From Rhodocyclales bacterium (GTDB lineage: Bacteria > Pseudomonadota > Gammaproteobacteria > Burkholderiales > Rhodocyclaceae): 29,533 bases of DNA. Made by a program: the position numbers and the translations under genes. Shown here piece after piece: positions 470 to 17,039 of the stretch; within the stretch, counting starts at the first letter, position 1; each line of letters begins with the position of its first letter. Location of the stretch: contig JAJTBM010000002.1 of NCBI GenBank assembly GCA_021286885.1, forward strand, positions 1-29,533, given 5' to 3'. Below the pieces are notes generated by a model. It was given only the letters and a program-made list of their open reading frames with translations. It was not told where the DNA came from and made no database searches.

Positions 470-1147
470 ATGTCGCCCATCTCCATTGCTGCGCCCCCGT
501 CTGCCACGCCCGGGTTTGATCCGGCGAGCCGGTTTCCGCCGGGGTTTCTGGAGGGCTTTGGGGTGCGGGATTTGCCGGGGGGCTATCTGCTGGCGACGCC
601 GGGGCAGCCGCTGGATCAGGTGTTCATTGTGCGCAGCGGGCGTGTGCGGGTGTATCTGGCGAGTGAGGCGCGGGAGTTGAGTCTGGCGATTCTGGAGCCG
701 GGGGATGTGTTTGTGACCCACACGCCGACCTTCGTCCAGACCCTGGAGCCGGTGACGCTGTGGGTGCTGGGTACCCGGGAGTTTGCGGCGCGGCTGGCCC
801 GGGAGCCGTCCATCACGCCGGCCATCATGCGGGTGCTGGGGCGGATTCTGAGCAATGCGGTGGCGCTGGTGGAGGATCTGGCGTTTCGCGATGTGCCGGC
901 GCGGCTGGCGCGGTTTCTGGTGCGGCAGGCGGAGCAGCGCGGGGTGATGGAGGCGGACGGCTGTCTGCTGCCCCTGCGCCTGGGCACCGAGGATATTGCC
1001 TGCCTGCTGGGCACCACCCGCCAGTCGGTGTCGTCCCAGATGAACCAGTGGCAGCGGGAAGGCCTGCTCACCCGGCGCAGCCGCCATGCGCTGCTGATTC
1101 ACGATCTGCCCGCCCTGGCCCTGCGTAGTCTGGCTTCGAGCGGCTGA
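470..1147 (+). CDS. CooA-like Crp/Fnr-family regulator, probable haem-based CO sensor
   Basis: This 225-residue protein has the Crp/Fnr layout: an N-terminal cyclic-nucleotide-type beta-roll (about 25-110), a long dimer helix (about 115-150) and a C-terminal winged helix-turn-helix (about 170-215). It resembles CO sensor CooA more than Crp or Fnr. The block VRVYLASEARELSLAILEPG and the dimer-helix block VLGRILSNAVALVEDLAF align well with remembered CooA sequence. His84, in GDVFVTH, falls where CooA has haem ligand His77, but CooA Cys75 is replaced by Val82. The recognition helix has Arg184-Gln185, as in CooA, which reads TGTC half-sites. There are no N-terminal Cys residues, so an Fnr-type iron-sulfur cluster is unlikely. 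The next gene, cowN, has a matching operator. No strong ribosome site precedes the ATG. CO sensing is inferred, not shown. Confidence 0.7.
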   Translation: MSPISIAAPPSATPGFDPASRFPPGFLEGFGVRDLPGGYLLATPGQPLDQVFIVRSGRVRVYLASEARELSLAILEPGDVFVTHTPTFVQTLEPVTLWVLGTREFAARLAREPSITPAIMRVLGRILSNAVALVEDLAFRDVPARLARFLVRQAEQRGVMEADGCLLPLRLGTEDIACLLGTTRQSVSSQMNQWQREGLLTRRSRHALLIHDLPALALRSLASSG

Positions 1148-1173
1148 AGGGCAGGGGCGCGGTTTGGGTGTTT

Positions 1174-1189
1174 TGTCGGCTGGCCGACG
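1174..1189. promoter_or_regulatory. CooA-type operator upstream of cowN
   Basis: TGTCG-GCTGGC-CGACG contains perfect 6-bp arms (GTCGGC/GCCGAC) around TG. It closely follows the published Rhodospirillum CooA site pattern TGTCA-N6-CGACA. Its centre (1181.5) lies about 41 bp before the start site predicted from the -10 box at 1211, the usual class II activator position. No T-run follows, so it is unlikely to be a terminator for the regulator gene. Confidence 0.65.
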
Positions 1190-1210
1190 GAAAGCCCCTG
1201 GCGTTTTGCA

Positions 1211-1216
1211 TACAGT
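1211..1216 (+). promoter_or_regulatory. Predicted -10 element of the cowN promoter
   Basis: TACAGT is a good -10 box, with predicted transcription start near 1223. No good -35 box is seen; the CooA-type operator occupies that region, as expected for an activator-dependent promoter. The transcript leader would be about 30 bases and carries the GGGGA ribosome site at 1244-1248. Confidence 0.45.
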
Positions 1217-1254
1217 GTGCCCATCACATCCGTTTTTTGTTTTGGGGATACACC

Positions 1255-1589
1255 ATGAGCGACCAGACCACTTCCCGTCCGGCTGATTGCGGCTGCCGTC
1301 TGCGGGCGGGCAGCAGCCCAGACCGTTACATCAGCTTTGCGGGCATTGATTGCGACGGCAACGCCCGCCGCTTGATGGCGATGATCGACGCCCACCTGCT
1401 CGACCCGGCCAAGAAGGACGCCTTCTGGGCGTATTTCGAGCGCAAGCGGCGGGCCGAAACGGGCCCCCCCGGGCCGACGAGCTGTTCCTGATCCACAGCA
1501 ACATCAACCAGATTCGGGATTATCTTGAGGATTGGGACGACGCACCCGCCCAGGCCCTGTTGCTCCAGATTGAGCTGGAGTGTTGTTGA
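1255..1589 (+). CDS. cowN: CowN, CO-protective nitrogenase factor, with an apparent frameshift
   Basis: CowN lets cells keep fixing nitrogen when CO, an inhibitor of nitrogenase, is present. The N-terminal part carries the family core DRYISFAGIDCDGNARRLM and FWAYFERK. The C-terminal part, in the next frame, carries DELFLIHSNINQIRDYLEDW and the typical end IELECC. The two halves are joined at a run of seven C (1464-1470). Read straight through, the first frame stops at 1491 after 78 residues; adding one C, or slipping back one base, gives 111 residues matching the family end to end. Causes could be a sequencing error, a real mutation, phase variation or programmed slippage. The ATG at 1255 has GGGGA seven bases upstream. 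An N-terminal extension of about 20 residues with two Cys precedes the core. The family call is firm; whether it is functional is open. Confidence 0.8.
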
Positions 1590-1662: not shown

Positions 1663-2109
1663 ATGTTCCGCCGTTTCCTCATTCTCCTGCTGATCATCAC
1701 CCTGCCGGCCCAGGCCCTGGCGGGGATGTTGGGCATGGGCTGCCGTCATGGGCAGGGGGAGAGCACGCCCGAGCGTGGCGTGGCGTCTGTGGTCGCACCC
1801 GCACCCATGGCGATGGCGGACGATTGCCCCATGCATCACAGCGCCCACCATGCCGCCCAGGCTGTGGCCGATCAGGGGGCAGATCAGGCGGCGCCTGCTC
1901 CCGATGCGGGCGCCGGATCGGCCCATCATGCGGCCCTGGTCTGCGATGATTGCGGCACCTGCCATTCGGTGGGCTTCAGCCTGCTGGCCCCCGGTGTGGT
2001 CCTGGCGCTGCCGGAGCTGGCCCCGGTTCAGGTCGCCCACGCCCCCCGCCTGCTGCTGATCGAAGCCCCCGGGCGCCTCGAACGTCCTCCCAGAAGCCCC
2101 CGCGTTTAA
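1663..2109 (+). CDS. CzcI-like His/Cys-rich exported protein
   Basis: This 148-residue protein opens the metal-efflux operon. It has a clear signal peptide (RRFLILLLIITLPAQALAG, cleavage near residue 21). The exported part is rich in potential metal ligands: CRHG, DDCPMHHSAHH, SAHH and the cluster CDDCGTCHS. The Cys/His motif and the position ahead of a CzcCBA-type pump match the small periplasmic CzcI-type proteins associated with such systems. A periplasmic metal-binding or sensing role is inferred. The middle is low in complexity (Ala, Asp, Gln), and the C-terminus is Pro/Arg-rich. A -10-like TACAAT lies only seven bases upstream of the ATG, and no Shine-Dalgarno is visible. Confidence 0.6.
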   Translation: MFRRFLILLLIITLPAQALAGMLGMGCRHGQGESTPERGVASVVAPAPMAMADDCPMHHSAHHAAQAVADQGADQAAPAPDAGAGSAHHAALVCDDCGTCHSVGFSLLAPGVVLALPELAPVQVAHAPRLLLIEAPGRLERPPRSPRV

Positions 2110-2110
2110 C

Positions 2111-2197
2111 GCGGACAGGGCTTGTTCTGCTAACAGCTTCTTCCCCTCTCCGGGCCTTTCGGCCTGGCTGACGCGCCTTCGGGTGCGCCCTGTCCGC
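2111..2197 (+). ncRNA. Candidate multi-stem structured RNA element in the efflux operon
   Basis: An 11-bp perfect pairing (2111-2121 with 2187-2197, GCGGACAGGGC/GCCCTGTCCGC) encloses two further hairpins. One is CCGGGCC/GGCCTGG (2150-2156 with 2161-2167, one G-U pair). The other is GCGCC-TTCG-GGTGC (2173-2186), with a very stable cUUCGg tetraloop. It begins two bases after the stop of the CzcI-like gene and ends 46 bases before the outer-membrane-factor start. It could be a leader, an RNA-processing or stability element, or an attenuator. There is no T-run directly after it. I do not recognise a known riboswitch. Confidence 0.4.
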
Positions 2198-2243
2198 ATG
2201 TGTTCTGCGCTTTCCGCCGTATTTTTGTGGTTGCGAGGATTTC

Positions 2244-3506
2244 ATGGGACTTCATCCCGGGGCCGTGCGGGCCCTCACCCTATGCATTGTGATGGGCAGC
2301 AGCTCTGCTGCCCGGGCCGAGGCGCTGTTTCAGTCTCAAACCCAGGCCCAAACCCAAGCTCAAGCCCAGGCCCAGTCTGTGCCGGCCCTGCGGGCCTTGG
2401 TGGATCAGGCCTGGCAGCTTGATCCCCAGGCGCGCCGCATCCGCCACCGTCGTGACGCGCTGGAGGCCCAGGCCCGCCAGGTGGGCGGCTGGACGCCGGC
2501 CCCCGGCAGTCTGGCCGTGGGCCAGCGTTCCGACCGTTACCTGGCCGGGCGTGGCCAGCTCGAATGGGAACTGGAATACGCCCAGCCCCTGTGGCTGCCC
2601 GGTCAGGCCGACGCCCGCCGCCAGGAGGCCGCCCTGGCCCTGGCCGCGCTGGAGGCCGACGCCGCCCTGCTGCGCCTGGAGCTGGGCCGCCAGCTGGCCG
2701 AGGCCCATCAGGCCTGGCGTCTGGCGGCAGATCTGCACGCCCTGGCCGGGCGCCGGCAGACGCTGGCCGAAGCCCTGGCCGCCGATCTTGCACGCCGCTA
2801 CCGGGCTGGCGAGGCCCCCCGGTTTGATGACAACCTGGCCCAGGCCGAGCTGCTGGGGGCCCAGGCCGCCCGGGACGAAGCGGCGCTGGCCGAGCAGGCA
2901 GCGGAGGATAGCTTCCGCCGTCTGGCGGGCAGCCCGCCCCCGGCCCACTGGCCCCGCCCGGGGCAACTGCCGCCCCCGGTGCCGCCCCAGCTGGACGCGC
3001 CCCAGCGGGCCCTGGATTGGGCCCTGGCCCAGCTGGAAAGCACCCGCCGCAGCCCCCGGGACAACCCGGAGCTGGGGGTGCGCCTGCGCCGCGAGCGGGA
3101 TGCCACCGGCGCCGAGTTTGCCGATTCCCTGGCCCTGCGCCTGAGCATTCCCCTTGAATCCGCCCCCCGCCAGCAGGCCCGGGAGGCGGATGGCGCGGGC
3201 GCGGTGGACGAAGCCCAGGCCGCCCTGGCCCGGGCCCGCCTCACCCAGGCCCAGGAACTGCGCCGCAGCGAGGCCCAGCGCGCCCGGGCGCTCCAGCTGG
3301 AGGCCGGGGCCGACACCCGCCTGCAGCTTGCCCAGGACAATCTGGCCCTGGCCGACAAGGCCTGGCGCCTGGGCGAACGCCCCCTCGAAAGCCTGCTGCG
3401 CACCCGCAGCGCCTTCTTTGATGCGGAAGAAGCCCGCCTGCGTGCCCGCCACGCCCGGGCCCAGGCAGAAACCGCCCAGCTTTACTGGTCAGGAGTGGCC
3501 GAATGA
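2244..3506 (+). CDS. TolC-family outer-membrane efflux protein (CzcC-like)
   Basis: The outer-membrane channel of a tripartite metal pump, 420 residues, the usual CzcC/CusC size. A signal peptide (cleavage near ARA, residue 25) is followed by a Gln-Ala-Thr low-complexity stretch (about 30-44). Two long alpha-helical Ala/Leu/Gln/Arg-rich halves follow, typical of the TolC coiled-coil barrel, with repeats such as LAEAHQAWRLAADLHALA and LAQDNLALADKAWRLGERPL. The ATG has GAGGA five bases upstream. The stop overlaps the next start as ATGA. The partners are the adaptor at 4108 and the RND pump at 5229. The fold assignment is strong; the transported metal cannot be read from this protein. Confidence 0.85.
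   Translation: MGLHPGAVRALTLCIVMGSSSAARAEALFQSQTQAQTQAQAQAQSVPALRALVDQAWQLDPQARRIRHRRDALEAQARQVGGWTPAPGSLAVGQRSDRYLAGRGQLEWELEYAQPLWLPGQADARRQEAALALAALEADAALLRLELGRQLAEAHQAWRLAADLHALAGRRQTLAEALAADLARRYRAGEAPRFDDNLAQAELLGAQAARDEAALAEQAAEDSFRRLAGSPPPAHWPRPGQLPPPVPPQLDAPQRALDWALAQLESTRRSPRDNPELGVRLRRERDATGAEFADSLALRLSIPLESAPRQQAREADGAGAVDEAQAALARARLTQAQELRRSEAQRARALQLEAGADTRLQLAQDNLALADKAWRLGERPLESLLRTRSAFFDAEEARLRARHARAQAETAQLYWSGVAE
2331..2376 (+). repeat. Low-complexity Gln-Ala/Thr coding repeat
   Basis: Imperfect 6-base units of the form CAGGCC/CAAACC encode alternating Gln with Ala or Thr (about residues 30-44) just after the signal peptide of the outer-membrane factor. This is a likely site of length variation between strains. 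Confidence 0.6.
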
Positions 3507-4108
3507 ATCCCCTTATCCCCGTATTGTGTCTGCTGGCGGCCCTGCCGCTGGCCGGCCCCGCCCGTGCCCACGAAGGCCACGACCACGCCGAGCCGCCCCC
3601 CGTGGTGGCCGATTGGGCGCCCCGGGCCGCCGCCCGTAGTGAATTGTTTGATCTGGTGCTGGCCTGGGGGCCGGCGGCTGACTCGGCGGCTAATTCGGCG
3701 GTTGAGTCGGCGGCTGACTCGGCGGCTGACTCGGCGGCGCCCCCCGAATTGCGCCTGTGGCTGGACGGGGCCGACAACCGCCCCATCTCCGATGCCCGTA
3801 TCCAGCTGGAACTCAACGCCGGCCAGCCCGATGCCTGGCAGGCCGAAGCCCGGCCCGTGGGGGCGGGCGCCTACGTGCTCAGCGCCCCGCCCCTGGCGCG
3901 CCCGGGCAGCTACGCCCTCACCGCCACCGTCACGCGGGGAGACGATCTGGATCTGCTCCCCCTGCAACTGGTGGTGCCAGCCCCTGCGCAGGCCGAAGCC
4001 GCACATCTGCCGGCCCTGAACGCCGCCTGGTGGAGTGCGGCAGGGCTGGCGGGGCTGTTGGCCCTGGGGGCTGGTTTGGTCTGGCAACAACGCAGGAGGG
4101 CCCGGTGA
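3503..4108 (+). CDS. His-rich, membrane-anchored periplasmic protein of the efflux operon
   Basis: A 201-residue protein with a signal peptide ending in ARA, immediately followed by the metal-ligand motif HEGHDHAE. A low-complexity Ala/Ser/Asp stretch (about 58-77), encoded by a 12-bp tandem repeat, precedes a beta-rich Ig-like domain (about 80-165). A single transmembrane helix (about 178-195) and a basic tail (QQRRRAR) follow, so most of the protein should face the periplasm. It sits between the outer-membrane factor and adaptor genes, with ATGA overlaps on both sides, so it is almost certainly co-translated with the pump. A role in handing metal ions to the adaptor is an inference. I do not recognise a named family. 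Confidence 0.65.
   Translation: MNPLIPVLCLLAALPLAGPARAHEGHDHAEPPPVVADWAPRAAARSELFDLVLAWGPAADSAANSAVESAADSAADSAAPPELRLWLDGADNRPISDARIQLELNAGQPDAWQAEARPVGAGAYVLSAPPLARPGSYALTATVTRGDDLDLLPLQLVVPAPAQAEAAHLPALNAAWWSAAGLAGLLALGAGLVWQQRRRAR
3674..3733 (+). repeat. 12-bp tandem repeat, five copies, in frame
   Basis: Five consecutive copies of GCGGCTGACTCG occur; copies 1, 4 and 5 are identical and copies 2 and 3 carry substitutions. They encode a repeating Ala-(Ala/Val)-(Asp/Asn/Glu)-Ser linker after the His-rich N-terminus. Because the unit is a multiple of three, copy-number changes would alter linker length without breaking the frame. Confidence 0.85.
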
Positions 4109-5232
4109 TGGCCGCGTACCGTTGCAACACGCGTGCTTGGGCCCTGGCCTGGGTGCTGGCCCTGCCGCTCGTGGCCCGGGCCCATGGGGGTGAGGATCAC
4201 GGCGCCCCGGTGGCCGCCCGGCCCCAGGCCGGTGGGCAGGAAAGCCCGCGCCGGCTGGCAGGCGGGCAGGTGATGCTGCCCAAGGCGCTACAACACGCCT
4301 GGCAGATCCGCAGCCTGAGCCTGGCTGCAGCCAGCACCCCGCCCCAGTGGGCCTTGCAGGGGCGGGTGGTGGCGGATCCGGCTTTGGGCGGACGGCTCCA
4401 GGCGCCCCAGGCGGGCGTATTGGAAGCGCCTGCCGGTGGCCTGCCCCTGCCCGGGCAGACGGTGGCGGCGGGGGCGGTGCTCGCTTGGCTGCGCCCCCAG
4501 CCCGGGGCCCTGGAGGCCAGCGCCCGCCAGGCCGAACAGGCGGATCTGGCGGGGCGGGTGCTGCTCGCCCGTCAGCGGGCCGAGCGCCTCGCCCAGCTGG
4601 AAGGCAGCGTGGCCCGCAAGGACATTGAAGCCGCCCGCAGCGAGGCCGATGCCCTGGCCCGCCAACAGGCTGCCCTGGGGGGCGGGCTGGCGCGCATCCC
4701 TTTACGGGCGCCCTTTGCCGGGGTGGTGGCGGCCCTGGGCGCCCAGGCCGGGGAACGGCTGGAGGCGGGAGCCGAGGTGCTGACCCTGCTGCGCCCTGAC
4801 CGGCTCATGGTGGAAGTGCTGGCCGCCGATCCGGCCTTGGCCCGGGGGCTGGGAGATGCCCGGGGCGAGGCCGCCGGCCAGACCCTCACCCTGCGCTTTG
4901 CTGGGGCCGGGCGCAGTCTGCGGGAGGGCAGTCTGCCCCTGCTGTTCCGGGTGGAGGGCAGCCCGCCCCTGGTGCTGGGCCAGCCGGTGCGCCTGTGGGC
5001 GCGCCAGGAAGGCCCCCCCCAGGCGGCATTGCTGATCCCCGAGGCGGCGCTGGAAAGCCGCAGCGGGAGTGATGGGGCCCGGGTGTGGGTGCATGGGGCG
5101 CCCGAACAGTTCGAGCCCCGTTTGGTGCGGATACGCCCCTGGGGGCCGGGCGCGTGGGCGGTGGAATCCGGCCTGGTGGCCGGGGAACGGGTGGTAGTGC
5201 AGGGCGCGGGCCTGCTGGGGAGCGTGCGATGA
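4108..5232 (+). CDS. Efflux RND periplasmic adaptor (membrane fusion protein)
   Basis: A 374-residue adaptor bridging the RND pump and the outer-membrane channel. The signal peptide ends in ARA, followed by HGGEDHGAP, a short His-rich N-terminus like that of CzcB-type adaptors. The lipoyl-like half-motif GVLEAPAGGLPLPGQTVAAG (about 108-127) and its return half PLRAPFAGVVAALGAQAGER flank an alpha-helical hairpin (about 135-190). Beta-barrel and membrane-proximal domains follow to the end. ATG 4108 is chosen because it overlaps the previous stop (ATGA), has a strong ribosome site (AGGAGGG, 4094-4100) and opens a signal peptide. The stop overlaps the pump gene, again as ATGA. Confidence in the family is high; the metal is not determined. 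Confidence 0.85.
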   Translation: MAAYRCNTRAWALAWVLALPLVARAHGGEDHGAPVAARPQAGGQESPRRLAGGQVMLPKALQHAWQIRSLSLAAASTPPQWALQGRVVADPALGGRLQAPQAGVLEAPAGGLPLPGQTVAAGAVLAWLRPQPGALEASARQAEQADLAGRVLLARQRAERLAQLEGSVARKDIEAARSEADALARQQAALGGGLARIPLRAPFAGVVAALGAQAGERLEAGAEVLTLLRPDRLMVEVLAADPALARGLGDARGEAAGQTLTLRFAGAGRSLREGSLPLLFRVEGSPPLVLGQPVRLWARQEGPPQAALLIPEAALESRSGSDGARVWVHGAPEQFEPRLVRIRPWGPGAWAVESGLVAGERVVVQGAGLLGSVR

Positions 5233-8200
5233 GCGCCCCCCACGTCGCCCCGGGGCATCTTTTCGACCGGCTGGTGCGCTGGAGCCTGCATAACCGGCTG
5301 CTGGTGCTGGCCGCCGCGCTGGCCTTGCTGGTGGCGGGCAGCCTGGAGTTGGGCCGCTTGCCGGTGGATGTATTCCCCGATCTGGACAAGCCCACCGTCA
5401 CCCTCATGAGCGAGGCGGGCGGCATGGCGCCGGAAGAGGTGGAGCAACTGGTGAGCCAGCCCCTGGAGGCCGCCATGGGCGGCATTCCTGGCGTGAGCCG
5501 GGTGCGCTCGGTATCGGGCGTGGGGCTGTCGCTGGTGTATGTGGAGTTTGATTGGGGCAGCGACCTGTGGCGCAACCGCCAGAACGTGACCGAGCGCCTC
5601 GCCGCCGTGCGGGAGCGCCTGCCGGCAGCGGTCCAGCCCCAGCTCGGGCCGGTGTCGTCCATCATGGGGGAGGTGCTGCTCATCGCCCTGCCCATCGACC
5701 CGCGCCAGACCGACCCGCTGGCGGTGCGCGATTACGCCGACTGGGTGCTACGCCCGCGCCTGCTGGCGCTGCCCGGGGTGGCCCAGGTGATCCCCATCGG
5801 CGGTGGTGTGCGCCAGTGGCGGGTGAGCCCCGACCCGGTGCGCATGCGCAGCCTGGGGATCAGCCTGGATGCCCTGGAGGCCGCCGTGGCGGGCTTTGCC
5901 GGCAACGGGGCGGGGGGCTTTCTGGAGCGCCACGGGCAGGAATGGCTGGTGCGTGGCATTGGCCGCAGCCAGCGCATCGAAGACCTGGCCAGCGTGGCCG
6001 TTGGCGCCCCCCGGGGTGTGCCGGTGCGCCTGGGGCAGGTGGCCGAGGTGGGGTTTGCGGCTGCACCGGCCCGGGGCAGCGCAGGCTACAACGGCGGGCC
6101 GGCGGTGATCGTGTCGGTGCAGAAGCAGCCGGGCACCGACAGCATCCGCCTCACCCGGGCGGTGGAAGGCCTGCTGGCCGAGATGCGCCCTGGCCTGCCC
6201 CCAGGCATTGCCGAGCCGCGCTTTCTGTTTCGCCAGGCCGATTTCATCGAAGCCGCCCTTGGCAACGTGGGGGAAGCCCTGCGGGATGGGGCGGTGCTGG
6301 TGGCCCTGGTGCTGTTTGCGTTTTTGCTCAACGGGCGCACCACCCTGATTTCCCTGGTGGCGATTCCCCTTTCGCTGCTGATGGCGGTGCTGGTGTTCCG
6401 GTTGCTGGGCCTGTCCATCAACACCATGACCCTGGGCGGCCTGGCGATTGCGGTCGGAGAGCTGGTGGATGATGCGGTGGTGGACGTGGAAAACGTGCTG
6501 CGCCGCCTCCAGGACAACCGCCGTGCCGCCGCGCCCCGCCCGGCCCTGGCGGTGATCGCCGGGGCGTGCAGCGAGGTGCGCTCCGGCGTGGTGCTGGCCA
6601 CCCTCACGGTGGTGCTGGTGTTCGTGCCCCTGTTTGCCCTGCCTGGCATGGAAGGGCGGTTGTTTGCGCCCCTGGGCAGCGCCTACATCGTGGCGATTCT
6701 GGCCAGCCTGGCGGTGGCCGTGTTCGTGACCCCGGTGCTGTGCTTCTGGCTGCTGCCCGGCATGCCCCGGCTGGATCGCCCCGATGGCTGGCTGGTGGCC
6801 CGCCTCAAGGCCGCCCAGGAGCGCTTGCTGGGTTGGGCGCTGCCCCACGGGGGCGCCCTGCTGGCGGGGGCGCTGGCCCTGGTGCTGGTGGCGGGGCTGG
6901 GGCTGTTGGCCTTTCCGCGCAGCTTCTTGCCGCCCTTTAACGAGGGCACCCTCACGGTGAATGTGATCCTCCAGCCTGGGGTGTCGCTGGCCGAGTCGGG
7001 GCGCATCGGCCAACTGGCCGAAACTGCCCTGCTGGAGGTGCCGGAGGTGCGCCGGGTGGGGCGCCGCACCGGGCGGGCGGAGCTGGACGAGCACGCCGAA
7101 GGCGTCCATTACAGCGAGCTGGATGTGGATCTGGACCCGGCGGGCCGCCCCCGGGCCCAGGTGATCGCCGATATCCGCGCCCGGCTCGCGACCCTGCCGG
7201 CCAGCGTTTCGGTGGGCCAGCCCATCGCCCACCGGCTCGACCACTTGCTGTCTGGGGTGCGGGCCCAGATTGCGGTCAAGGTGAGCGGCGACGATCTGGA
7301 TCAGATCCGCCGGGTGGCCGAGGGCCTGCAGGCGGGCTTTGCCACCATTCCGGGGGTGGCCGACCTCCAGCTGGAAAAGCAGGTGCGCATTCCCCAGCTG
7401 CGCATTGAGCTGGACTATCCCGCCCTCGGTGCTGCCGGGGTGAGCCCCGCCAGCGTGCTGGGTCAGGTGCGCCGGCTGGTGGGGGGCGAGCGCATCGGCG
7501 AGGTGGTGGATGGCGCCCGGCGCCTGGATCTGGTGCTGCGCCTGCCGGAAGACGCCCGGGGCCCCGAGGCTCTGGCCGCCCTGCCGGTGCCCACCGCCAG
7601 CGGTGCCAGCCTGCCCCTGGGGGGGCTGGCCCGGATCAGCGCCGGTGATGGCCCCAACCAGATCGCCCGGGATCAGGGCCGGCGCCGGATTGTGGTGTCG
7701 GCCAATGTGGCGGGCAGCCTGTCGGAGGTGGTCGCCCAGATGCGCGCCCAGGTGGCTGCCACGCCCTTGCCCGCCGGGGTGGCGGTGAGCATCGAAGGCC
7801 AGTTCCAGGCCCAGGAAGAGGCCCAGCGCCGGATCGCGCTGCTGTCCCTGCTCTCGTTGGGGCTGGTGTTTCTGGTGCTCTACAGCCGCTATCGCTCCCT
7901 GCGTCTGGTGGGCATGGTGATGGCCGGGATTCCGGCAGCGCTGGTGGGGGCCGTGGCCGCCCTGGCCCTGGCCGGTCAGCCCCTTTCGGTGGCAGCGTTG
8001 GTGGGCTTTGTGACCCTCACCGGCATCGCCACCCGCAATGGCATCTTGAAACTGAGCCATTACCTGCATCTGCACCAGCAGGAAGGCGTGCCCATGGGCC
8101 CGGCCCTGGTGCTGCGCGGGGCGCGGGAGCGCCTCACTCCGGTGCTGATGACTGCCCTCACGGCGGCCCTGGCCCTGGTGCCGCTGCTGCTCGCCGCCGA

Positions 8201-8360
8201 CGGGGCAGGCAAGGAGATTTTGCATCCGGTGGCGGTGGTGATCTTCGGGGGGCTGTTCAGCGCCACCCTGCTCGATACCCTGCTGACCCCGATTCTGTTT
8301 TACCGCTACGGCGGCCCGGCCCTGGTCGCCGGGGCCGCGCCCGATTCTGATTCCGTATGA
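5229..8360 (+). CDS. Heavy-metal efflux RND transporter, CusA/CzcA family
   Basis: The proton-driven inner-membrane pump of the tripartite system, 1,043 residues, a normal length for the family. It starts with a transmembrane helix and the family signature LPVDVFPDLDKPTVTLMSEA, and has the second repeat SLPLGGLARI...EGQFQAQEEAQRR. The helix-4 motif reads GELVDDAVVDVEN (410-422). Asp414 aligns with CzcA Asp408/CusA Asp405 and Glu421 with CzcA Glu415, while CzcA Asp402 is Ala408. The three CusA copper-binding Met positions (573, 623, 672) align with non-Met residues, the last with His in RLDHLLSG. Copper(I) export by the CusA mechanism is therefore not supported; a divalent metal is more plausible, but the substrate is unknown. 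The start overlaps the adaptor stop (ATGA). Confidence 0.9.
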   Translation: MSAPHVAPGHLFDRLVRWSLHNRLLVLAAALALLVAGSLELGRLPVDVFPDLDKPTVTLMSEAGGMAPEEVEQLVSQPLEAAMGGIPGVSRVRSVSGVGLSLVYVEFDWGSDLWRNRQNVTERLAAVRERLPAAVQPQLGPVSSIMGEVLLIALPIDPRQTDPLAVRDYADWVLRPRLLALPGVAQVIPIGGGVRQWRVSPDPVRMRSLGISLDALEAAVAGFAGNGAGGFLERHGQEWLVRGIGRSQRIEDLASVAVGAPRGVPVRLGQVAEVGFAAAPARGSAGYNGGPAVIVSVQKQPGTDSIRLTRAVEGLLAEMRPGLPPGIAEPRFLFRQADFIEAALGNVGEALRDGAVLVALVLFAFLLNGRTTLISLVAIPLSLLMAVLVFRLLGLSINTMTLGGLAIAVGELVDDAVVDVENVLRRLQDNRRAAAPRPALAVIAGACSEVRSGVVLATLTVVLVFVPLFALPGMEGRLFAPLGSAYIVAILASLAVAVFVTPVLCFWLLPGMPRLDRPDGWLVARLKAAQERLLGWALPHGGALLAGALALVLVAGLGLLAFPRSFLPPFNEGTLTVNVILQPGVSLAESGRIGQLAETALLEVPEVRRVGRRTGRAELDEHAEGVHYSELDVDLDPAGRPRAQVIADIRARLATLPASVSVGQPIAHRLDHLLSGVRAQIAVKVSGDDLDQIRRVAEGLQAGFATIPGVADLQLEKQVRIPQLRIELDYPALGAAGVSPASVLGQVRRLVGGERIGEVVDGARRLDLVLRLPEDARGPEALAALPVPTASGASLPLGGLARISAGDGPNQIARDQGRRRIVVSANVAGSLSEVVAQMRAQVAATPLPAGVAVSIEGQFQAQEEAQRRIALLSLLSLGLVFLVLYSRYRSLRLVGMVMAGIPAALVGAVAALALAGQPLSVAALVGFVTLTGIATRNGILKLSHYLHLHQQEGVPMGPALVLRGARERLTPVLMTALTAALALVPLLLAADGAGKEILHPVAVVIFGGLFSATLLDTLLTPILFYRYGGPALVAGAAPDSDSV

Positions 8361-8386
8361 TGTATTGCAAACCCAGGAGAAACCCC

Positions 8387-8827
8387 ATGAATGCTGTTTT
8401 CAAATCCGTGACCCGTACTGCCCTGGCCCTGCTCGTGGCTGCCGCTGCCAGCGCTCCCGCCCTGGCCCACGATGATGCCACCCTGGATCAGATGCCCAGC
8501 GCCCACGGCGGCCAGATCCGCATGGCCGGCATGTACCACCTGGAGCTGGTGCTGGCCAAGGATGCCAAGGGCGGCGAAACCGCCGCGCCGGTCAAGGTGT
8601 ACTTCACCGATCACATGGGCAAATCCACCAACGTGACCGGCGCCAGCGGCAGCCTCACCCTGCTGTCGCCTGCCGGCAAGGTGGTAGTGCCCCTGAGCGC
8701 CGATGGGGATCACCTCCAGGGCAGCGCCCCCTACGTGGCCCACCCGGCCACCAAGGCGGTGGTGCAGGTGAAATTTGCCGATGGCAAGGGCGAAACGGCC
8801 CGTTTCGAGCCCTTCAAGAAAAAGTAA
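8387..8827 (+). CDS. Small periplasmic protein of the efflux operon
   Basis: A 146-residue exported protein, last in the efflux operon. The signal peptide ends in ALA, and the mature protein begins HDDATLDQMPSAHGGQIRM. His, Asp and Met near the N-terminus could bind metal, and the rest is a compact beta-rich domain ending in FKKK. ATG 8387 is chosen over an upstream ATG at 8357 because it has AGGAGA (8375-8380) at good spacing and opens directly into the signal peptide. It lies 26 bases after the pump stop. Similar small proteins accompany HME-type RND pumps, but I know of no assigned function. Confidence 0.65.
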   Translation: MNAVFKSVTRTALALLVAAAASAPALAHDDATLDQMPSAHGGQIRMAGMYHLELVLAKDAKGGETAAPVKVYFTDHMGKSTNVTGASGSLTLLSPAGKVVVPLSADGDHLQGSAPYVAHPATKAVVQVKFADGKGETARFEPFKKK

Positions 8828-8892
8828 AAGCGGTCAAACCTGGCGGGCAGGTGCCGTTAAGCCTCTCTGGTCGAATGGGAGGCTGGCTCAAC

Positions 8893-11691
8893 ATGGTGCG
8901 GCAGCGTGGGTGGTGCTGGGAGGGCGGGTGGTGCGCGGTGCTGGTGCTGGCCTTGCTGTACTCGGGGCTGGCCCAGGCTGCGTGCAGCCTGCCCGCCAAC
9001 TGGCCCAGCGGGGTGACGGGGAGCTGCCAGTGCGATGATTTCGGGCGCAGCAGCCTCAACCCCTCCACCATTTACAGCAGCAACTGGACGGCCACCACCA
9101 GCGATTCCACCGGCATCGTGCCGCGCATCGTCAATCAGGGCTATCTGCGCCTCACCGACAACACGGTGAACAACGCCAAGGCAGCCACCGTGCCCGGGGT
9201 TTTTCCGGCGGCGGGCAATTACATCTCCATCGAGTTCCGCCATTACGCCTACAACGGCAATGGCGGCGCCGACGGGGTGGCGATGATTCTGTCGGATTAC
9301 GCGGTGCCCGCCGTGCCCGGGGGCTACGGTGGGTCTCTGGGCTATGCCCCGCGTACTGATACGGGGCTGCCGGGTTTTGCCGGGGGCTGGCTGGGGATCG
9401 GTTTTGATGAGTACGGCAACTTCCAGAACCCCACCGAAGGCCGGGTGGGTGGGGTGGGTTATTACCCCCAGTCCATCGGGATTCGGGGCTCTGGGGCGGG
9501 GAGTTCCGGCTATCCTTGGCTGTATGGCTCTTACAGCCTGAGCGGCAGCAATTCCATCGACAATCGGGGCTCTACCAGCCCATCCCGAGGTTACGCCTAT
9601 CAGATCATCGTGGATGCGCGCAGCTACACGAGCGCTAACCAGGTGGCCTATGTGGCGATCAACCGGGATGTGTCTGGCAGCGAAACCAGCTACAGCGCGT
9701 TTTTTCCGTCTTTCGACGTGTATAGCCGCGCTCGGGCCATGGGCGTCAGCCAAGCCTCGGTGCCGGACAACTGGCAGATTTCCTTCACCGCCTCCACCGG
9801 GGCATACACCAACATCCACGAGATTGGCGGGCTCCGGATCTGCGCCATGTCCATGATGGCCCCCGGCGGCGGCACGCCTGGAGGCTTCAATGCCATCGAC
9901 AGCAGTTACACCCTGGGTGATGTGACGGCCCTCCAGGGGCATGTGTTCACCAAGTTGGCGGGAATACCCTTCAGCCTCAAGGTGGCGGCCCTCAACAGTA
10001 CGTCCAGCGGCATCGCCACCACCTACGCCCTGACCTCCACCAAAAATGTGACGGTGAGCCTGATCGACGATAGCAGCGGCACGTCCTGCAATGTATCGGC
10101 CAGCGCCTGCACGGCCTGCAACAAGCCCGTCATTGCGAGCCAGAACTTGAGCTTCAAGAGCACCGACAAGGGCAGCAAGCTCACCAGCAATTTCACGGTA
10201 GCCAAAGCTTATTCTCGGGTGCTGGTGCGCATCAACGATTCATCCACCACCGGCTGCTCCACCGACGTGTTTGCGATCCGCCCGACGGCGGTATCGGCGG
10301 TGAGCAGCAGCGCCACCAATGCCGGTCTCACCGGCAGCCCGGTGTTCAAGGCCGGCACAGATGCTTTCACCCTGAGTGCCAGCGTGCCGGTGGGCGGCTA
10401 TACCGGCACCCTCAAGGTGGCCGCCAAGGGCATCCAGGGCCTGCCCGGCGGTGCGGTGGCGGGCAGCCTGGGGAGCAGCAGCTTCGCGCCGGCGGTGGCA
10501 GGCACGAGCACTTCCAGCGCCAGTCTGAGCACCACCTACAGCGAGGCCGGCAATTTCCGCATTCTTGGCTCGGGGGGTATTTACGGGATCTACGACGACA
10601 GCTGGACGGCGGTGGACCAGGGCGCCAACAATGATTGCGTGGCCGGCAGCTACAGCAATACGCTGGATGCCAGCGGCAAATACGGCTGCCTGTTTGGCCT
10701 CACCAGCGACAGCGCCACCTTTGGCCGCTTCAGCCCCAGCCGCTTCGTGCTGGCGAGCAGCAGCGTGCAGCCCGCGTGCAGCGCCAGCGGCAAGACCGCC
10801 TTCACCTATATGGGCCAGCCCCTGGCCCGGCTGGCCCTCACCCTCCAGGCCCAGAACGGCGCGGGCGCCGTGCTGGCCAATTACGACTCCACCCTGCTGG
10901 GCAGCCTCGCCAGCATCAGCTGGACTGCCGAAAATGCCGACAACGGCCAGAATCTGGGCAGCCGGCTCAGCATTCCGTCCCCGGCCCGGGTGTGGAACGC
11001 CGGCCAATACCTGCTGGACACCGCCGCCGCCAGTTTTCTGCGCGCCACCAGTCCCGACGGCAGCTACGAAGCCCTCCAGCTCGGGGTGCAGCTCAGCGAT
11101 CCGGATGGGGCTGCCCTCACCAGCCTGGACATCAACCCCCTCACCCGCGGCGCCTGCACCCCCAATACCTGCACCGCCCGGGCTGTGGGCAGCCCCCTGG
11201 CGCTACGTTTTGGCCGCCTGCGCCTGCAAAACGCCTTCGGCTGGGAACAAGCCCCCCTGCGCATCCCCCTGCAGGCCGAATACTGGAAAGGCAGCGACTT
11301 TGTGCCCAATGCGGATGACAGCTGCACTACCCTCAGCCCCAGCAATTTTGTATTCACCACCGCCACCGGCGCCCCCACCAACTGCGCCACCGGCCTCAGC
11401 CTCAGCAATAACGGCCAATTCACCAACGGCAGCGCCCAGGCCACCCTGGCCGCCCCCGGCAGCCCCCTCAGCCTGTGGATTTCACCCGATCTGGACAGCA
11501 CCGCTGGCGGCAAGACCTGCGTCGGCACCCGCCTGCCGGTCAGCCTCAGCAACGCCACCGCCGCCAGCAAAACCTGGCTCCAGGGCCGCTGGCAGGGCAG
11601 CACCACCTACACCAGCAACCCCCGCAGCAAGGCCGTATTTGGTTTGCACCGGGGGGCCGACAAGGTGATTCAGGTGAGGGAGGTGTATTGA
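8893..11691 (+). CDS. mshQ: MSHA biogenesis protein MshQ-like (lectin-like and DUF6701 domains)
   Basis: A 932-residue exported protein matching MshQ, a large component of mannose-sensitive haemagglutinin-type pili that may act at the pilus tip or in adhesion. The signal peptide ends in AQA (about residue 29). An L-type-lectin-like domain (about 45-315) follows, with FRHYAYNGNGGADGVAMILSD and GGWLGIGFDEYGNF. A Cys-rich linker (SCNVSASACTACNK) and a long Ser/Thr-rich C-terminal DUF6701-type region ending VFGLHRGADKVIQVREVY complete it. ATG 8893 is preferred because GGAGG lies 10 bases upstream and the signal peptide follows at once; GTG 8851 and ATG 8875 are in-frame alternatives. In other MSHA loci mshQ usually follows mshP; here it lies upstream of mshE, cut off by hipBA. 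The end looks complete, not truncated. Confidence 0.75.
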   Translation: MVRQRGWCWEGGWCAVLVLALLYSGLAQAACSLPANWPSGVTGSCQCDDFGRSSLNPSTIYSSNWTATTSDSTGIVPRIVNQGYLRLTDNTVNNAKAATVPGVFPAAGNYISIEFRHYAYNGNGGADGVAMILSDYAVPAVPGGYGGSLGYAPRTDTGLPGFAGGWLGIGFDEYGNFQNPTEGRVGGVGYYPQSIGIRGSGAGSSGYPWLYGSYSLSGSNSIDNRGSTSPSRGYAYQIIVDARSYTSANQVAYVAINRDVSGSETSYSAFFPSFDVYSRARAMGVSQASVPDNWQISFTASTGAYTNIHEIGGLRICAMSMMAPGGGTPGGFNAIDSSYTLGDVTALQGHVFTKLAGIPFSLKVAALNSTSSGIATTYALTSTKNVTVSLIDDSSGTSCNVSASACTACNKPVIASQNLSFKSTDKGSKLTSNFTVAKAYSRVLVRINDSSTTGCSTDVFAIRPTAVSAVSSSATNAGLTGSPVFKAGTDAFTLSASVPVGGYTGTLKVAAKGIQGLPGGAVAGSLGSSSFAPAVAGTSTSSASLSTTYSEAGNFRILGSGGIYGIYDDSWTAVDQGANNDCVAGSYSNTLDASGKYGCLFGLTSDSATFGRFSPSRFVLASSSVQPACSASGKTAFTYMGQPLARLALTLQAQNGAGAVLANYDSTLLGSLASISWTAENADNGQNLGSRLSIPSPARVWNAGQYLLDTAAASFLRATSPDGSYEALQLGVQLSDPDGAALTSLDINPLTRGACTPNTCTARAVGSPLALRFGRLRLQNAFGWEQAPLRIPLQAEYWKGSDFVPNADDSCTTLSPSNFVFTTATGAPTNCATGLSLSNNGQFTNGSAQATLAAPGSPLSLWISPDLDSTAGGKTCVGTRLPVSLSNATAASKTWLQGRWQGSTTYTSNPRSKAVFGLHRGADKVIQVREVY

Positions 11692-11692
11692 G

Positions 11693-13030
11693 TCATAGGC
11701 CTTGGCCCCAGGCGATTTCTTGAGCCAGGGAAAAGCAGATCCGAAAACGGTTGATTTCAGTTTCAGGCATGCCCTCAGCGCTGAAATAGGTCTGCCAGTG
11801 CTCTGCAATGTATTGGGCCGTAGTGTGCAGATATGCGGTGGCTTCGGCATGGGTGTAGCCGTAGTGGGCTTCTGCTGCGGCCAGCAGGGCTCCCGTTTCA
11901 ATTACCGAGATCAGGCGGGGCGCTGTTCCGCTGGTCGGTGCGCGCCCTCGCTGTCCGGGGGGAATGTAGTGATAGGCCATGCATAGGGCCGGGTTCTGGG
12001 GCAGATTGGCGGTGGGGACCAGGTCAAAGGCTGGAGACAGGCGCCATTGCTGGCGGGCCATGTTTTCGCAGATCAGGCCGTGATTGCGGGGGTGGTCATC
12101 CAGATTACGGATTAGGGCATTGAAGACGATACGCCGCCAGAGTTCGCGCCGTTCTTCCTGGTGGATGGTTTGATCGCGAGACCAGCGAAGCATGTCCTGG
12201 GCCAGGCTGACATAGCTTTTACGCATCCCGGCCGGGCTGAAGCCCAGGGTGGCAAAGGCCTGCATGTCTTTGTGTTGAGGGGGATGCATGTCCAGCCTGA
12301 GCAGGGCGTGGGCGCTCACGTAGGCGGTTCTGGCATAGCTGCCGGATGCCATGCGGTGGCGATCAAAGCGTGGTACCAGGAGTGCAGTAGCACCTGTCGG
12401 GAGCCGCCAGACTTCGGGGTCTATCAGGGTGCGCACCCCACAGCTGCGGGCCAGTTTCAGCGTGGCGCATTCCAGATGGGGTAACCAGGGAGAATCGCCC
12501 TGGGCTGGAAATTTGGCCAGATACTGAATGCCATTCCGTTCGATGCTCAGTTTGGGCTTGGTTCCGCCTAAGCTGGTACCCCGCTGATGGGCGTCCATGA
12601 CCTGCTCCTCAAGGGGCGTGCGAGCCTGGGTTCCTTGGGACTGGGCGATGAGCAGTTCAAGAAACTCCTCCAGTTTAAGGACGTGCAGCCGTTCCTGACT
12701 GAGGGGGCCAAGCGCAATATTGCCTACGCCGTCGGTAGGGCACAGCGTCAGGGCCTCAAGCTCTGAAACGGCGCGCCCCAGGCGTCTTTCCAACAGATGA
12801 CGACCCCAGGTGTCGGGCCCCGCATCCAGAAAAATTGGAAAAATCCCAAGCCCACCTGTGACCGTTGTGGATTTGCGGTTGCGCGGGATGTCGGGGGCCA
12901 GGGCTGGGTGGCCAGCGGCGAGGTAGTCGGCCGAGTATTCAAAGCGTCCGACGTTTCCGGTGTGGGAGAACTCGCCTGCAAGGGTCGGTTCTGTTGCTTC
13001 GGGCAGCCATACATAAACGGGGTGCCCCAT
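11693..13030 (-). CDS. hipA: HipA-family serine/threonine kinase toxin
   Basis: HipA kinases phosphorylate translation factors, in E. coli glutamyl-tRNA synthetase, and promote growth arrest and persistence. This 445-residue protein has the glycine/serine-loop-like motif GTSLGGTKPKL (about 151-161), the catalytic motif NLDDHPRNHG (about 309-318, the first Asp matching E. coli Asp309) and the metal-binding SPAFDLVP (about 332-339). All core residues look intact. ATG 13030 shares one base with the hipB stop (TGATG); GTG 13033 is an equally close alternative. It is transcribed with hipB and points towards mshQ, with a gap of one base between the two stop codons. G+C content is somewhat lower than in the flanking msh genes, consistent with insertion of a mobile toxin-antitoxin pair. 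Confidence 0.85.
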   Translation of the reverse strand: MGHPVYVWLPEATEPTLAGEFSHTGNVGRFEYSADYLAAGHPALAPDIPRNRKSTTVTGGLGIFPIFLDAGPDTWGRHLLERRLGRAVSELEALTLCPTDGVGNIALGPLSQERLHVLKLEEFLELLIAQSQGTQARTPLEEQVMDAHQRGTSLGGTKPKLSIERNGIQYLAKFPAQGDSPWLPHLECATLKLARSCGVRTLIDPEVWRLPTGATALLVPRFDRHRMASGSYARTAYVSAHALLRLDMHPPQHKDMQAFATLGFSPAGMRKSYVSLAQDMLRWSRDQTIHQEERRELWRRIVFNALIRNLDDHPRNHGLICENMARQQWRLSPAFDLVPTANLPQNPALCMAYHYIPPGQRGRAPTSGTAPRLISVIETGALLAAAEAHYGYTHAEATAYLHTTAQYIAEHWQTYFSAEGMPETEINRFRICFSLAQEIAWGQGL

Positions 13031-13311
13031 CACGCCTCCGTTCCGTAGGACGGCGCCAACAGGCTGAGTAAGGGCACGTCGCCCAGTTCCAGCAGCCAGG
13101 CGGCGCGGGCGTAGTGGCCAATCTGGACAGTGGGGCGTCCCTGTTCCACAAACAGCGCGGTCTGGGGGCTGACACCCATCAGCCCGGCGAGCTCCCGTTG
13201 AGACAGGCCCCGTTCCTTGCGGGCCTGGGCGATCCGGTATCCCAGGGTTTCGAGGGAGGCTAGAACCTCAAAGGGCAGGGGAGAAACTTCAAAGGCGCGG
13301 ACTTTTGGCAT
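13030..13311 (-). CDS. hipB: HipB-like Xre-family antitoxin and repressor
   Basis: A 93-residue DNA-binding protein with an Xre helix-turn-helix (about 25-80): IAQARKERGLSQRELAGLMG followed by VSPQTALFVEQGR. It lies directly upstream of hipA with overlapping ends, the standard hipBA order. HipB proteins bind HipA and repress their own promoter. The start ATG (13311-13309) lies inside the left arm of a perfect 13-bp inverted repeat, and the right arm covers the predicted -10 box, a strong sign of autorepression. No clear Shine-Dalgarno is seen. The hydrophobic C-terminus (AAWLLELGDVPLLSLLAP) is the likely contact with HipA. The role is inferred from fold and context. Confidence 0.85.
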   Translation of the reverse strand: MPKVRAFEVSPLPFEVLASLETLGYRIAQARKERGLSQRELAGLMGVSPQTALFVEQGRPTVQIGHYARAAWLLELGDVPLLSLLAPSYGTEA

Positions 13312-13471: not shown

Positions 13472-15226
13472 ATGAAGCGTCCCCAACGGATACGCCTGGG
13501 CGAGGTGTTGTTGCAGCAAGGTTTGCTGACCCAGGTGCAGCTTGAGGCCGCGCTCGATGAGCAGCAGCGCAGCGGGCGCAAGCTGGGGCGGGTGCTGGTG
13601 GAGAGTGGCTATCTCAGCGAGGCGGTGCTGGGGGAGGCACTGGCGCGCCAGCTGGGGGTGAAATTTGTGGATCTGCAGAACTTTGGCCCCCGGGCCGAGG
13701 TGGTGCAGCTCTTGCCCGAGGCCCAGGCCCGGCGTTTCCGGGCGCTGGTGCTGGACGATACGGGCGATGCCCTGGGGGTGGGGATGGCGGATCCGACGGA
13801 TCTGTTCGCCTACGAGGAGTTGGCCCGGTGGCTCAAGCGGGATCTGGAACGGGCGGTGGTGGGGGAGGGGGCGCTGCTGGCGGCGCTGGATCGCCTGTAT
13901 CACCGGGCCGGCGAAATCCAGGGGCTGGCGAGTGCCTTGAGCGCCGAGCTGCGCGACGAGGCCACCGATCTGGCCGATCTGTTCGGCAAGGGCTCGGGCC
14001 AGGAAGATGCGCCAGTGGTGCGCCTGCTCCAGACGGTGTTTGAGGAGGCGGTGCGGCTGCGGGCTTCCGACATCCATGTGGAGCCCCAGGAGCGCAGCCT
14101 GCGCATCCGCTTTCGGATCGACGGGGTGCTGCATGTGCAGACCGAGACCGACAGCAAGATCGCCCCGGCGGTGGCCCTGCGCCTCAAGCTGATGTCGGGG
14201 CTGGATATTTCCGAAAAGCGTCTGCCCCAGGATGGGCGCTTCCAGATGGGGTTGCGCGGGGCCACGGTGGACGTGCGGATTTCCACCCTGCCGGGCCAGT
14301 TTGGCGAATCGGTGGTGATGCGTCTGCTCAACCAGAGCACGGCCCTGGTGGGGCTGGACGGCACCGGCATGGCGCCGGAGATGCTCGCCCGGCTGCGCCG
14401 GATTGCGCGGCGCTCCAGCGGTATCATCCTCGTCACCGGCCCCACCGGCAGCGGCAAGACCACCACCCTGTATGCGCTCCTGGCGGAGTTGAACAGCCCT
14501 GAACGCAAGATCATCACGGTGGAAGATCCGGTGGAATACCGGCTGGCCGGGATCAATCAGGTGCAGGTGCAGGACAAGATAGATCTGAGCTTCGAGCGGG
14601 TGCTGCGCGCCGCCCTGCGTCAGGATCCGGATGTGATCCTGGTGGGGGAAATGCGCGACCGGGCCACCGCCGAAATCGGCATGCGGGCCGCCATGACCGG
14701 CCACCTGGTGCTCTCCACGCTCCACACCAACGATGCGCTGTCCACCCCCATCCGGCTGATGGACATGGGCGTGCCGCGCTTCATGGTGGCCCTCTCGGTA
14801 CAGGTGGTGCTGGCCCAGCGCCTGGTGCGCAAGCTCTGCCCCCAGTGTGCGGCGCCGGAGCCCCTGGCAGCGGTGGAGCGGGCCTGGCTGCGCCAGGAGC
14901 TGGGGGATGGGGTCGATCAATATCGCTTCCGGCGCGGGAGCGGCTGCCACATCTGCGCCAATCAGGGCTATAGCGGGCGGGTGGGCATTCACGAAATGCT
15001 GGAGATGACGCCGGCCCTGGTGGAGGCGGCCAATCAGGCCGATGGCCGGGCCTTCATCGACGCCGGGCGGGCCCAGCTCCAGGGGCGCACCCTGCGGGCG
15101 GCGGCGGTGCGCCTGGCGGTGCAGGGCATCACCTCGGTGGAGGAGGCCATGCGCGTCACCAGCACCCAGGCGGATGACGAGGCCACCGAAGCCGGCCCGG
15201 TTCCGGACGATCATGGCGGACTTTGA
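13472..15226 (+). CDS. mshE: MSHA pilus assembly ATPase MshE (GspE/PilB family)
   Basis: The 584-residue motor ATPase that powers pilus assembly at the inner membrane. The N-terminus carries the tandem MshEN c-di-GMP-binding motif: RLGEVLLQQGLLTQVQLEAA (from residue 8, ending at Gln31) and a second copy beginning LGRVLVESGYLSEAVL (residues 38-60). The ATPase domain has Walker A GPTGSGKT (323-330), Walker B DPDVILVGEMRD (near 390) and the His box HLVLSTLHTNDA. A zinc-binding tetracysteine (CPQC...CHIC) follows. All key residues are present. The stop overlaps the mshG start by 14 bases. Assembly should respond to c-di-GMP, as shown for Vibrio MshE. Confidence 0.9.
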   Translation: MKRPQRIRLGEVLLQQGLLTQVQLEAALDEQQRSGRKLGRVLVESGYLSEAVLGEALARQLGVKFVDLQNFGPRAEVVQLLPEAQARRFRALVLDDTGDALGVGMADPTDLFAYEELARWLKRDLERAVVGEGALLAALDRLYHRAGEIQGLASALSAELRDEATDLADLFGKGSGQEDAPVVRLLQTVFEEAVRLRASDIHVEPQERSLRIRFRIDGVLHVQTETDSKIAPAVALRLKLMSGLDISEKRLPQDGRFQMGLRGATVDVRISTLPGQFGESVVMRLLNQSTALVGLDGTGMAPEMLARLRRIARRSSGIILVTGPTGSGKTTTLYALLAELNSPERKIITVEDPVEYRLAGINQVQVQDKIDLSFERVLRAALRQDPDVILVGEMRDRATAEIGMRAAMTGHLVLSTLHTNDALSTPIRLMDMGVPRFMVALSVQVVLAQRLVRKLCPQCAAPEPLAAVERAWLRQELGDGVDQYRFRRGSGCHICANQGYSGRVGIHEMLEMTPALVEAANQADGRAFIDAGRAQLQGRTLRAAAVRLAVQGITSVEEAMRVTSTQADDEATEAGPVPDDHGGL

Positions 15227-16448: not shown

Positions 16449-16449
16449 G

Positions 16450-16926
16450 ATGCAGCGGCGCTGGCGTCTGGGGTCGGTGGAGTTTGTCACCAGCATGGCG
16501 GTGATTGCGGTGTGCATGGCGGTGCTGCTCAACCGGATTTCGGCCTACCAGGAGCTGGCGGAGAAAACCCGGGTGGAGTTGACCATCACCCAGGTCCGCA
16601 CCGGGCTGCGCTATGCCCAGATGGATGCGCTGCTGCATCACCAGGACATCCCTGTGGATGCCTGGCTGGCGCGTAATCCCATGGCCTGGCTGGCCCAGCC
16701 GCCTGCGGATTACCACGGGGCCGTGGCCGCGTTGCCCCGCCCCCCGGAGCAGGGCTGGTATTACCTGAGCGATCAGCATGCGCTGGTGTATCTGCCCCGG
16801 TTTCATGCCCACCTGGATCGTCGGCTTGATGAGCGCCCTCCGCGCTTGATCTGGCAATTGCAGGCCGGGCCCAGTCTGCGCCCGGAAACAGTGGAGCTGG
16901 TGGCACGTCCTTACCAGTGGTTTTGA
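16450..16926 (+). CDS. MshF-like single-pass pilus biogenesis protein
   Basis: A 158-residue protein with one N-terminal transmembrane helix (about 10-32; SVEFVTSMAVIAVCMAVLLN) and a periplasmic domain. That domain contains NPMAWLAQPPADYHG and GWYYLSDQHALVYL, which resemble remembered MshF-type sequences. The helix looks pilin-like, but the segment after Gly8 reads SVEF, with Glu at +3 rather than the +5 of true prepilins, so cleavage by prepilin peptidase is uncertain. It lies between mshG and mshA, where mshF is found in other MSHA loci. ATG 16450 is used; an in-frame GTG at 16438 is an alternative. The exact role is unknown. Confidence 0.6.
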   Translation: MQRRWRLGSVEFVTSMAVIAVCMAVLLNRISAYQELAEKTRVELTITQVRTGLRYAQMDALLHHQDIPVDAWLARNPMAWLAQPPADYHGAVAALPRPPEQGWYYLSDQHALVYLPRFHAHLDRRLDERPPRLIWQLQAGPSLRPETVELVARPYQWF

Positions 16927-16978
16927 ATCCTTGCCTGGAAATCTCAATTCCTCCCGGGCCGCTGCCGTTACAGATAAC

Positions 16979-16994: not shown

Positions 16995-17039
16995 TGGAGC
17001 AGCCCATTAACCGACGAACCTGTGATTTCCTGTGAGGCG

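Follow-up and report, generated by a model that had tools for sequence, protein, structure and literature searches.

The window, by which we mean the whole 29,533-nucleotide contig analyzed here, very probably carries a local switch responding to CO, of the CooA-cowN type, in which a CooA-type regulator would act on the cowN gene directly downstream through a palindrome centred at -41.5 in a sigma70-like promoter. The features behind this sequence-based reading are collected in Table 1. The contig (G000:C284) belongs to an assembly of 3.44 Mb in 611 contigs that is 80.5% complete.

Table 1. Features of the predicted CO-response module (coordinates in the window)
Feature	Position	Strand	Basis or remark
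CooA-type Crp/Fnr regulator, 225 aa	470..1147	+	Open reading frame, sequence and fold search; start codon at 470 predicted
Val82	713..715	+	Alignment; position of R. rubrum CooA Cys75
His84	719..721	+	Alignment; position of haem ligand His77 of R. rubrum CooA; His in 121/121 (120 listed of 277 matches plus the window)
Arg184-Gln185, recognition helix	1019..1024	+	Alignment; both invariant in 121/121 (120 listed of 277 matches plus the window)
Operator TGTCGGCTGGCCGACG, predicted CooA site	1174..1189	.	Sole YGTCGGCYRGCCGACR in the genome; conserved in 38/38 named cooA-cowN loci
TACAGT, predicted -10 box	1211..1216	+	Sets operator centre at -41.5
cowN, start-codon frame	1255..1491	+	Codes for CowN as far as about KRR; out of frame from there to the stop
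C7 run	1464..1470	+	cowN frame broken at or near this run
C-terminal half of CowN, other frame, with stop	1473..1589	+	HMM match 1401-1586

A CooA-Type Regulator and Its Predicted Operator

The first-pass annotation of this DNA, made from the sequence alone, had described a Crp/Fnr protein with CooA-like features, and the corresponding 225-amino-acid open reading frame is present at 470-1147. CooA structures proved to be its best solved relatives: the four top matches in a sequence search of the PDB are CooA chains (2fmy, E = 2.1e-40; 2hkx, 7.5e-39; 1ft9, 1.1e-27; 6cpb, 2e-20), the first non-CooA Crp/Fnr structure following at E = 2.7e-16, and the alignments to the CooA proteins of C. hydrogenoformans and R. 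rubrum (2fmy and 1ft9) run without gaps over 187 and 189 residues. A structure model, for which 41 sequences were used (mean pLDDT 86.8; residues 1-14 below 50), was likewise matched best by three CooA chains in a fold search of the PDB, with TM-scores of 0.76 to 2hkx, 0.52 to 2fmy, and 0.51 to 1ft9. The last two values are lower than those to several cAMP receptor proteins, which perhaps reflects the orientation of the domains in the model. Among NCBIfam models, none specific to CooA matched the regulator, and the best general models fell far under their own cut-offs. With CooA the closest relative by both sequence and fold, and with the haem-ligand histidine and the Arg-Gln pair retained, the regulator is assigned by these comparisons to the CooA type.

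Residues were compared across 121 aligned proteins, namely the window's regulator and 120 listed of its 277 matches. Arg184-Gln185 aligns with the Arg-Gln of both CooA structures, bearing out the earlier remark that the recognition helix resembles that of CooA. In R. rubrum CooA, Cys75 ligates the ferric haem, a residue that other CooA proteins can do without. Both C. hydrogenoformans and R. rubrum CooA have Cys at the position occupied by Val82 in the window's regulator; among the 121 aligned proteins (120 listed of 277 matches plus the window) the residue there is T in 92, S in 24, V in three, A in one, and I in one, and Cys in none, nor does Cys occur there in the 38 cowN-linked regulators described below or in that of locus L017. 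The ligands of ferrous haem in CooA are His77 and the N-terminal Pro2, according to the available text of two reports (PMC12937710; PMC9670170). By alignment the N-terminus of the window's regulator has no conserved Pro2, in a region where the start codon is predicted and model residues 1-14 have pLDDT below 50. A suspected branch of regulators without the haem histidine (six rows of the tree) was discarded as an artefact of the motif search, caused by a GD-to-GE change; the histidine is present.

The cowN-linked regulators also include a well-supported second clade (L017, L051, L067, L076, and L086) with an GELFSTHTRAYL-type haem motif. The L017 regulator is 41% identical to the window's and comes from the same genus (G012), one genome of which thus carries the second-clade type. 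The operators of this clade are fully symmetric in L017, L067, and L076.

The gap between the regulator and cowN is 107 bp long. It had been said to hold TGTCG-N6-CGACG about 41 bp before a transcription start predicted from TACAGT, and the palindrome is indeed found at 1174-1189: its centre lies 29.5 bp from the first T of TACAGT (1211), which corresponds to -41.5 if that T is taken as -12. The sequence TGTCGGCTGGCCGACG fits the CooA site form TGTC-N8-GACA, except that its final base is G rather than A. By base composition only, about 0.0005 occurrences of the arms are expected in the gap. Over the 3.44-Mb assembly the arms match seven times, against 12 for a control in which the pattern was read backwards, and the looser YGTCG-N6-CGACR matches 13 times against 38. 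Because the observed counts lie below the controls, the arms alone carry little weight genome-wide; with no enrichment there, arm-only counts were dropped as proof of an operator, and it is conservation in relatives that makes the case. The extended site YGTCGGCYRGCCGACR has one copy in the genome, the window's own, and its control none.

Neither the gap nor the 400 bp preceding the regulator contains a match to the strict NifA and sigma54 patterns; TGT-N10-ACA is not matched in the gap because the operator ends in ACG. Autoregulation of the window's regulator was considered and rejected, no TGTC-N8-GACA-type site having been found upstream of its gene.

Conservation among cowN Loci

Two overlapping sets of loci were compared (L028-L031 and L067, for example, are in both). 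In the first, consisting of the window's genome and 59 relatives, cowN occurs in eight of the 60 genomes and the regulator (E 1e-20) in seven, all of them among the eight with cowN (Fisher 2e-8, kinship ignored). In six of the eight cowN loci outside the window in this set the regulator lies directly upstream, and each of the six has TGTCGGCT(G/A)GCCGAC(G/A) in the gap.

The second set came from a scan of named genomes with the CowN alignment, in which 149 stretches matched, 82 were relatives, and 80 were kept. The regulator lies directly upstream of cowN on the same strand in 38 of these 80 loci, and the operator is found in every one of the 39 cooA-cowN loci (the 38 and the window). At least nine of the ten arm positions are retained in 38 of the 39, all but L101. 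There an exact extended site (3701-3716) precedes the cowN match by 236 bp, slightly beyond the reach of the 250-bp span first searched, and is contained in the 3'-terminal part of the regulator's own open frame, where it encodes SVGQPT. In L060 the best score sat at the cowN match itself, and the upstream site was taken instead. A TAnnnT element starts 21 bp after the palindrome in 24 sites and 22 bp after it in ten, or 34 of 38 sites (a count that leaves out L101), and lies at another offset within 0-38 in one more; with the TAAAGT found at 21 bp in L101, the total at 21-22 bp is 35 of 39. The extended form of the operator is present in 32 of the 38 named loci. Of the 38 operators counted without L101 but with the window's, 32 end in G and hence do not fit TGT-N10-ACA, which the other six do. 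The comparison across relatives, named beforehand as a point on which the circuit could fail, therefore found gene order, operator, and spacing conserved.

The 42 named loci lacking an adjoining regulator imply that cowN is not always under the control of a neighbouring CooA. All ten arm positions occur in two of them (L035 and L074), nine in six, and eight or fewer in 34; a pattern of the NifA type, TGT-N10-ACA, is present in many, accompanied in L059 and L072 by a sigma54-type match. In 22 of the 42, inspection by eye of the genes preceding cowN revealed no common regulator. L035 and L074 have perfect operators upstream of cowN with no regulator gene in the stretch examined, and their regulator may be encoded elsewhere in the genome. 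In a class-wide sample, cowN was found in three of 369 genomes besides the window's. Two of these loci (L025 and L027) have no regulator match within 3.3 kb; in the third, L026, cowN directly follows a gene (820-1392) whose product is distantly related to the regulator (33-36% identity), and the 3.3-kb locus lacks YGTCG-N6-CGACR, so that this protein perhaps uses a different operator.

A second TGTCG-N6-CGACA stands within 400 bp before the regulator in nine of the 38 loci (L033, L041, L044, L056, L062, L068, L076, L082, and L091), with no matches for either control pattern, and autoregulation is likely in these nine, judging from the site.

A Frameshifted cowN and the Gene Content of the Assembly

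The placement of cowN after the regulator in the first-pass annotation holds as far as the identity of the gene is concerned (NF033689, 65.6 bits against a cut-off of 48; Pfam CowN, PF20543, 63.9 against 27), but the gene is not one open frame, a break that had been missed. The two halves match the CowN model separately. The frame from the ATG at 1255 meets a stop at 1489-1491, the stop of the other frame is at 1587-1589, and a single frameshift therefore keeps the window's cowN from being one intact reading frame. The eight cowN matches outside the window have no internal stops; no near-identical intact CowN of the same species was present among 90 matches. With cowN frameshifted in the assembly, its output is either broken in the strain or only apparently so, through a sequencing or assembly error.

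The number of possible targets was assessed in 41 genomes (the window's, those of the 38 loci, and those of L035 and L074). YGTCGGCYRGCCGACR occurs once in 31 of them, more than once in six, and not at all in four; its reversed control matched in five of the 41. The single copy is the cowN site in 30 of the 31 single-copy genomes, the exception being the genome of L051, whose cowN operator differs. The same-genus genomes behind L028-L031 have one YGTCGGCYRGCCGACR each.

The observation that no CO-dehydrogenase genes are in view extends from the window to the whole assembly: there are no CooS matches in the window's genome (G000, 80.5% complete) or in four genomes of the same genus. Among the 41 genomes, CooS exceeds its cut-off in three (L074, L076, and L101) and gives weak partial matches in four others; 36 of the 38 other cooA-cowN genomes, many of them drafts, have no CooS over cut-off. 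The aerobic CO-dehydrogenase large subunit (TIGR02416) had no match at E 1e-100 in any of the 41, a weak search whose control gave a match in one of 14 genomes.

NifH is over cut-off in 34 of the 41 genomes. No nifH, and no nifHDK, was found in the window's assembly (80.5% complete). Its contig C196 begins inside nifE (275.6 bits, partial) and continues with nifN (570 bits, over cut-off), a nifX-like gene (91.6 bits, cut-off 112), and the NifX-associated TIGR02935 (over cut-off); since C196 starts in mid-nifE, nifHDK probably lies in unassembled sequence.

The rest of the window contains genes of other kinds. Directly downstream of cowN (1663-8827) is a heavy-metal efflux-type cluster, comprising a weak CzcI-like match (27.6 bits, cut-off 100), a weakly matching TolC-type protein, and a CusA/CzcA-family RND transporter over cut-off. 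It is followed by a 946-amino-acid protein with DUF6701 (212 bits; 8851-11691) and, on the minus strand at 11693-13311, by a HipA-type protein (HipA_C, Couple_hipA) with an adjoining small helix-turn-helix gene, a HipBA-like pair. Apparent pilus-assembly and pilin genes, recognized by eye from the open reading frames, lie beyond the DUF6701 gene at about 13472-19695.

Interpretation

The circuit would work as follows. Haem b would be held by His84 and the N-terminal amine, and CO would displace the N-terminal ligand; the dimer could then bind the palindrome, where it would overlap the -35 region and recruit RNA polymerase to the cowN promoter in the manner of a class II activator. The CowN produced is expected to raise the CO tolerance of nitrogenase. 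The original proposal of a CooA-type circuit for nitrogenase protection is partly sustained, by the conserved arrangement, by the restriction of the regulator to cowN-bearing genomes among the 60, and by the lack of CooS matches; the frameshift in cowN and the failure to find nifHDK tell against it in this assembly.

It seems highly improbable that the palindrome instead terminates transcription of the regulator gene or is a GC-rich repeat that arose by chance. It is GC-rich and self-complementary, it sits just past the regulator gene, and the arms on their own turn up often in genomes of this kind; but no T-run directly follows it, its distance to TAnnnT is fixed at 21-22 bp while the spacer varies, the L101 palindrome lies within the regulator frame, and similar arms precede the regulator gene in nine of 38 loci. 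A greater, though still small, chance attaches to the idea that regulator and operator do control cowN but in response to another haem ligand or to redox state (NO, O2). Haem-based NO sensors, HcpR among them, are known from the Crp/Fnr family in the portion of the literature covered, and the Cys75 position is never Cys in this branch (120 listed of 277 matches plus the window), so that redox behaviour may differ from that of R. rubrum CooA. CO is favoured as the signal by the nearest solved structure, that of C. hydrogenoformans CooA, and by two points in the available text of PMC8047169: CowN, the sole neighbour conserved (by design of our survey), protects against CO, and CO induces cowN in G. 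diazotrophicus, where the gene adjoins cooA.

A more serious contender, if still an unlikely one, is that the module is decaying in this strain, with cowN a pseudogene and the regulator and operator its remnants. The single frameshift and the missing nifH would agree with this, as would the distribution of cowN, which is found in only five of 22 other genomes of the genus, the module being absent from most. Several points speak against decay. The regulator has an intact reading frame, and four genomes of the same genus have exactly the same operator; a C7 run in an assembly broken into 611 contigs is a plausible place for a single-base error; and the assembly does contain nifN and other nif genes.

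Within the CooA-cowN reading, which we prefer, a narrower version is conceivable, and we put its chances at somewhat under even. CooA in this branch would be a one-promoter switch devoted to nitrogenase protection only, combining a sensor without Cys75, an extended palindrome YGTCGGCYRGCCGACR present once per genome in most members, and a class II site at a sigma70-type promoter; as the window has no overlapping NifA site, CO alone, and not nitrogen status, would set cowN transcription. Were cowN to answer to CO alone, the two-input model of NifA plus CooA would not be universal. As a sensor of CO with a single apparent target, the regulator would also offer a simple biosensor part. More generally, the 39 cooA-cowN loci support a role for CooA as a guard of nitrogenase in many diazotrophs without CO dehydrogenase, and they yield a precise predicted geometry of operator and promoter.

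Relation to Published Systems

Two aspects of the module are possibly new: a Cys-free branch of cowN-linked CooA, apparently with a one-promoter target set and a single-copy extended operator, and a sigma70-type cowN promoter with -41.5/-42.5 geometry and without an overlapping NifA site in the window and most relatives. The literature searched, available in part and with key CooA papers largely outside its coverage, yielded no report of the Cys-free cowN-linked branch, the single-copy extended operator, the -41.5/-42.5 geometry, or the absence of TGT-N10-ACA and sigma54 patterns from a gap such as the window's.

The comparisons that follow draw on the accessible portions of the cited reports. 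R. rubrum CooA regulates CO-dehydrogenase and hydrogenase operons (PMC4257681), whereas the window's genome has no CooS match; with the CooA proteins of R. rubrum and C. hydrogenoformans the window's shares the His and the Arg-Gln pair, and it differs from both in lacking their Cys at the Val82 position. The cowN gene of R. capsulatus is CooA-dependent, with NifA taking part, and sustains nitrogen fixation in CO (cited in PMC8047169); the action of NifA there contrasts with the window's gap, which has neither a NifA nor a sigma54 pattern. A 2026 survey lists cooA and cowN among the protection genes of nitrogen fixation (PMC12903952).

In the algH-cooA-cowN cluster of G. diazotrophicus, a CooA-type site, tGTCg-N6-tGACa, lies about 60 bp upstream of cowN and control by CooA has been proposed (PMC8047169). 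The adjoining cooA and the site upstream of cowN are as in the window; the difference is an overlapping NifA site (TGT-N10-ACA), a pattern lacking in the window's gap; no algH came to notice next to the window's regulator, and cowN in G. diazotrophicus follows nitrogen status, with CO induction only under diazotrophic conditions (PMC8047169). In Rubrivivax gelatinosus and R. benzoatilyticus, cooA and cowN are neighbours, a pair that occurs in strain IL144 and in R. benzoatilyticus without an anaerobic CO dehydrogenase; strain CBS has CO dehydrogenase and RcoM as well (PMC4257681). The Rubrivivax loci of our survey (L033, L036, and L041) have operators that deviate from the extended consensus, which the window's does not, and in two of these loci another TGTCG-N6-CGACA precedes cooA, for which the window has no counterpart. 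As in R. benzoatilyticus (PMC4257681), cooA adjoins cowN in the window, lying directly upstream on the same strand, and no CooS was found in the genome. Because CooA control of cowN (Rhodobacter, Gluconacetobacter) and cooA-cowN pairs free of CO dehydrogenase (Rubrivivax) have been published, the cooA-cowN circuit itself is not new, and the window adds a member to it.
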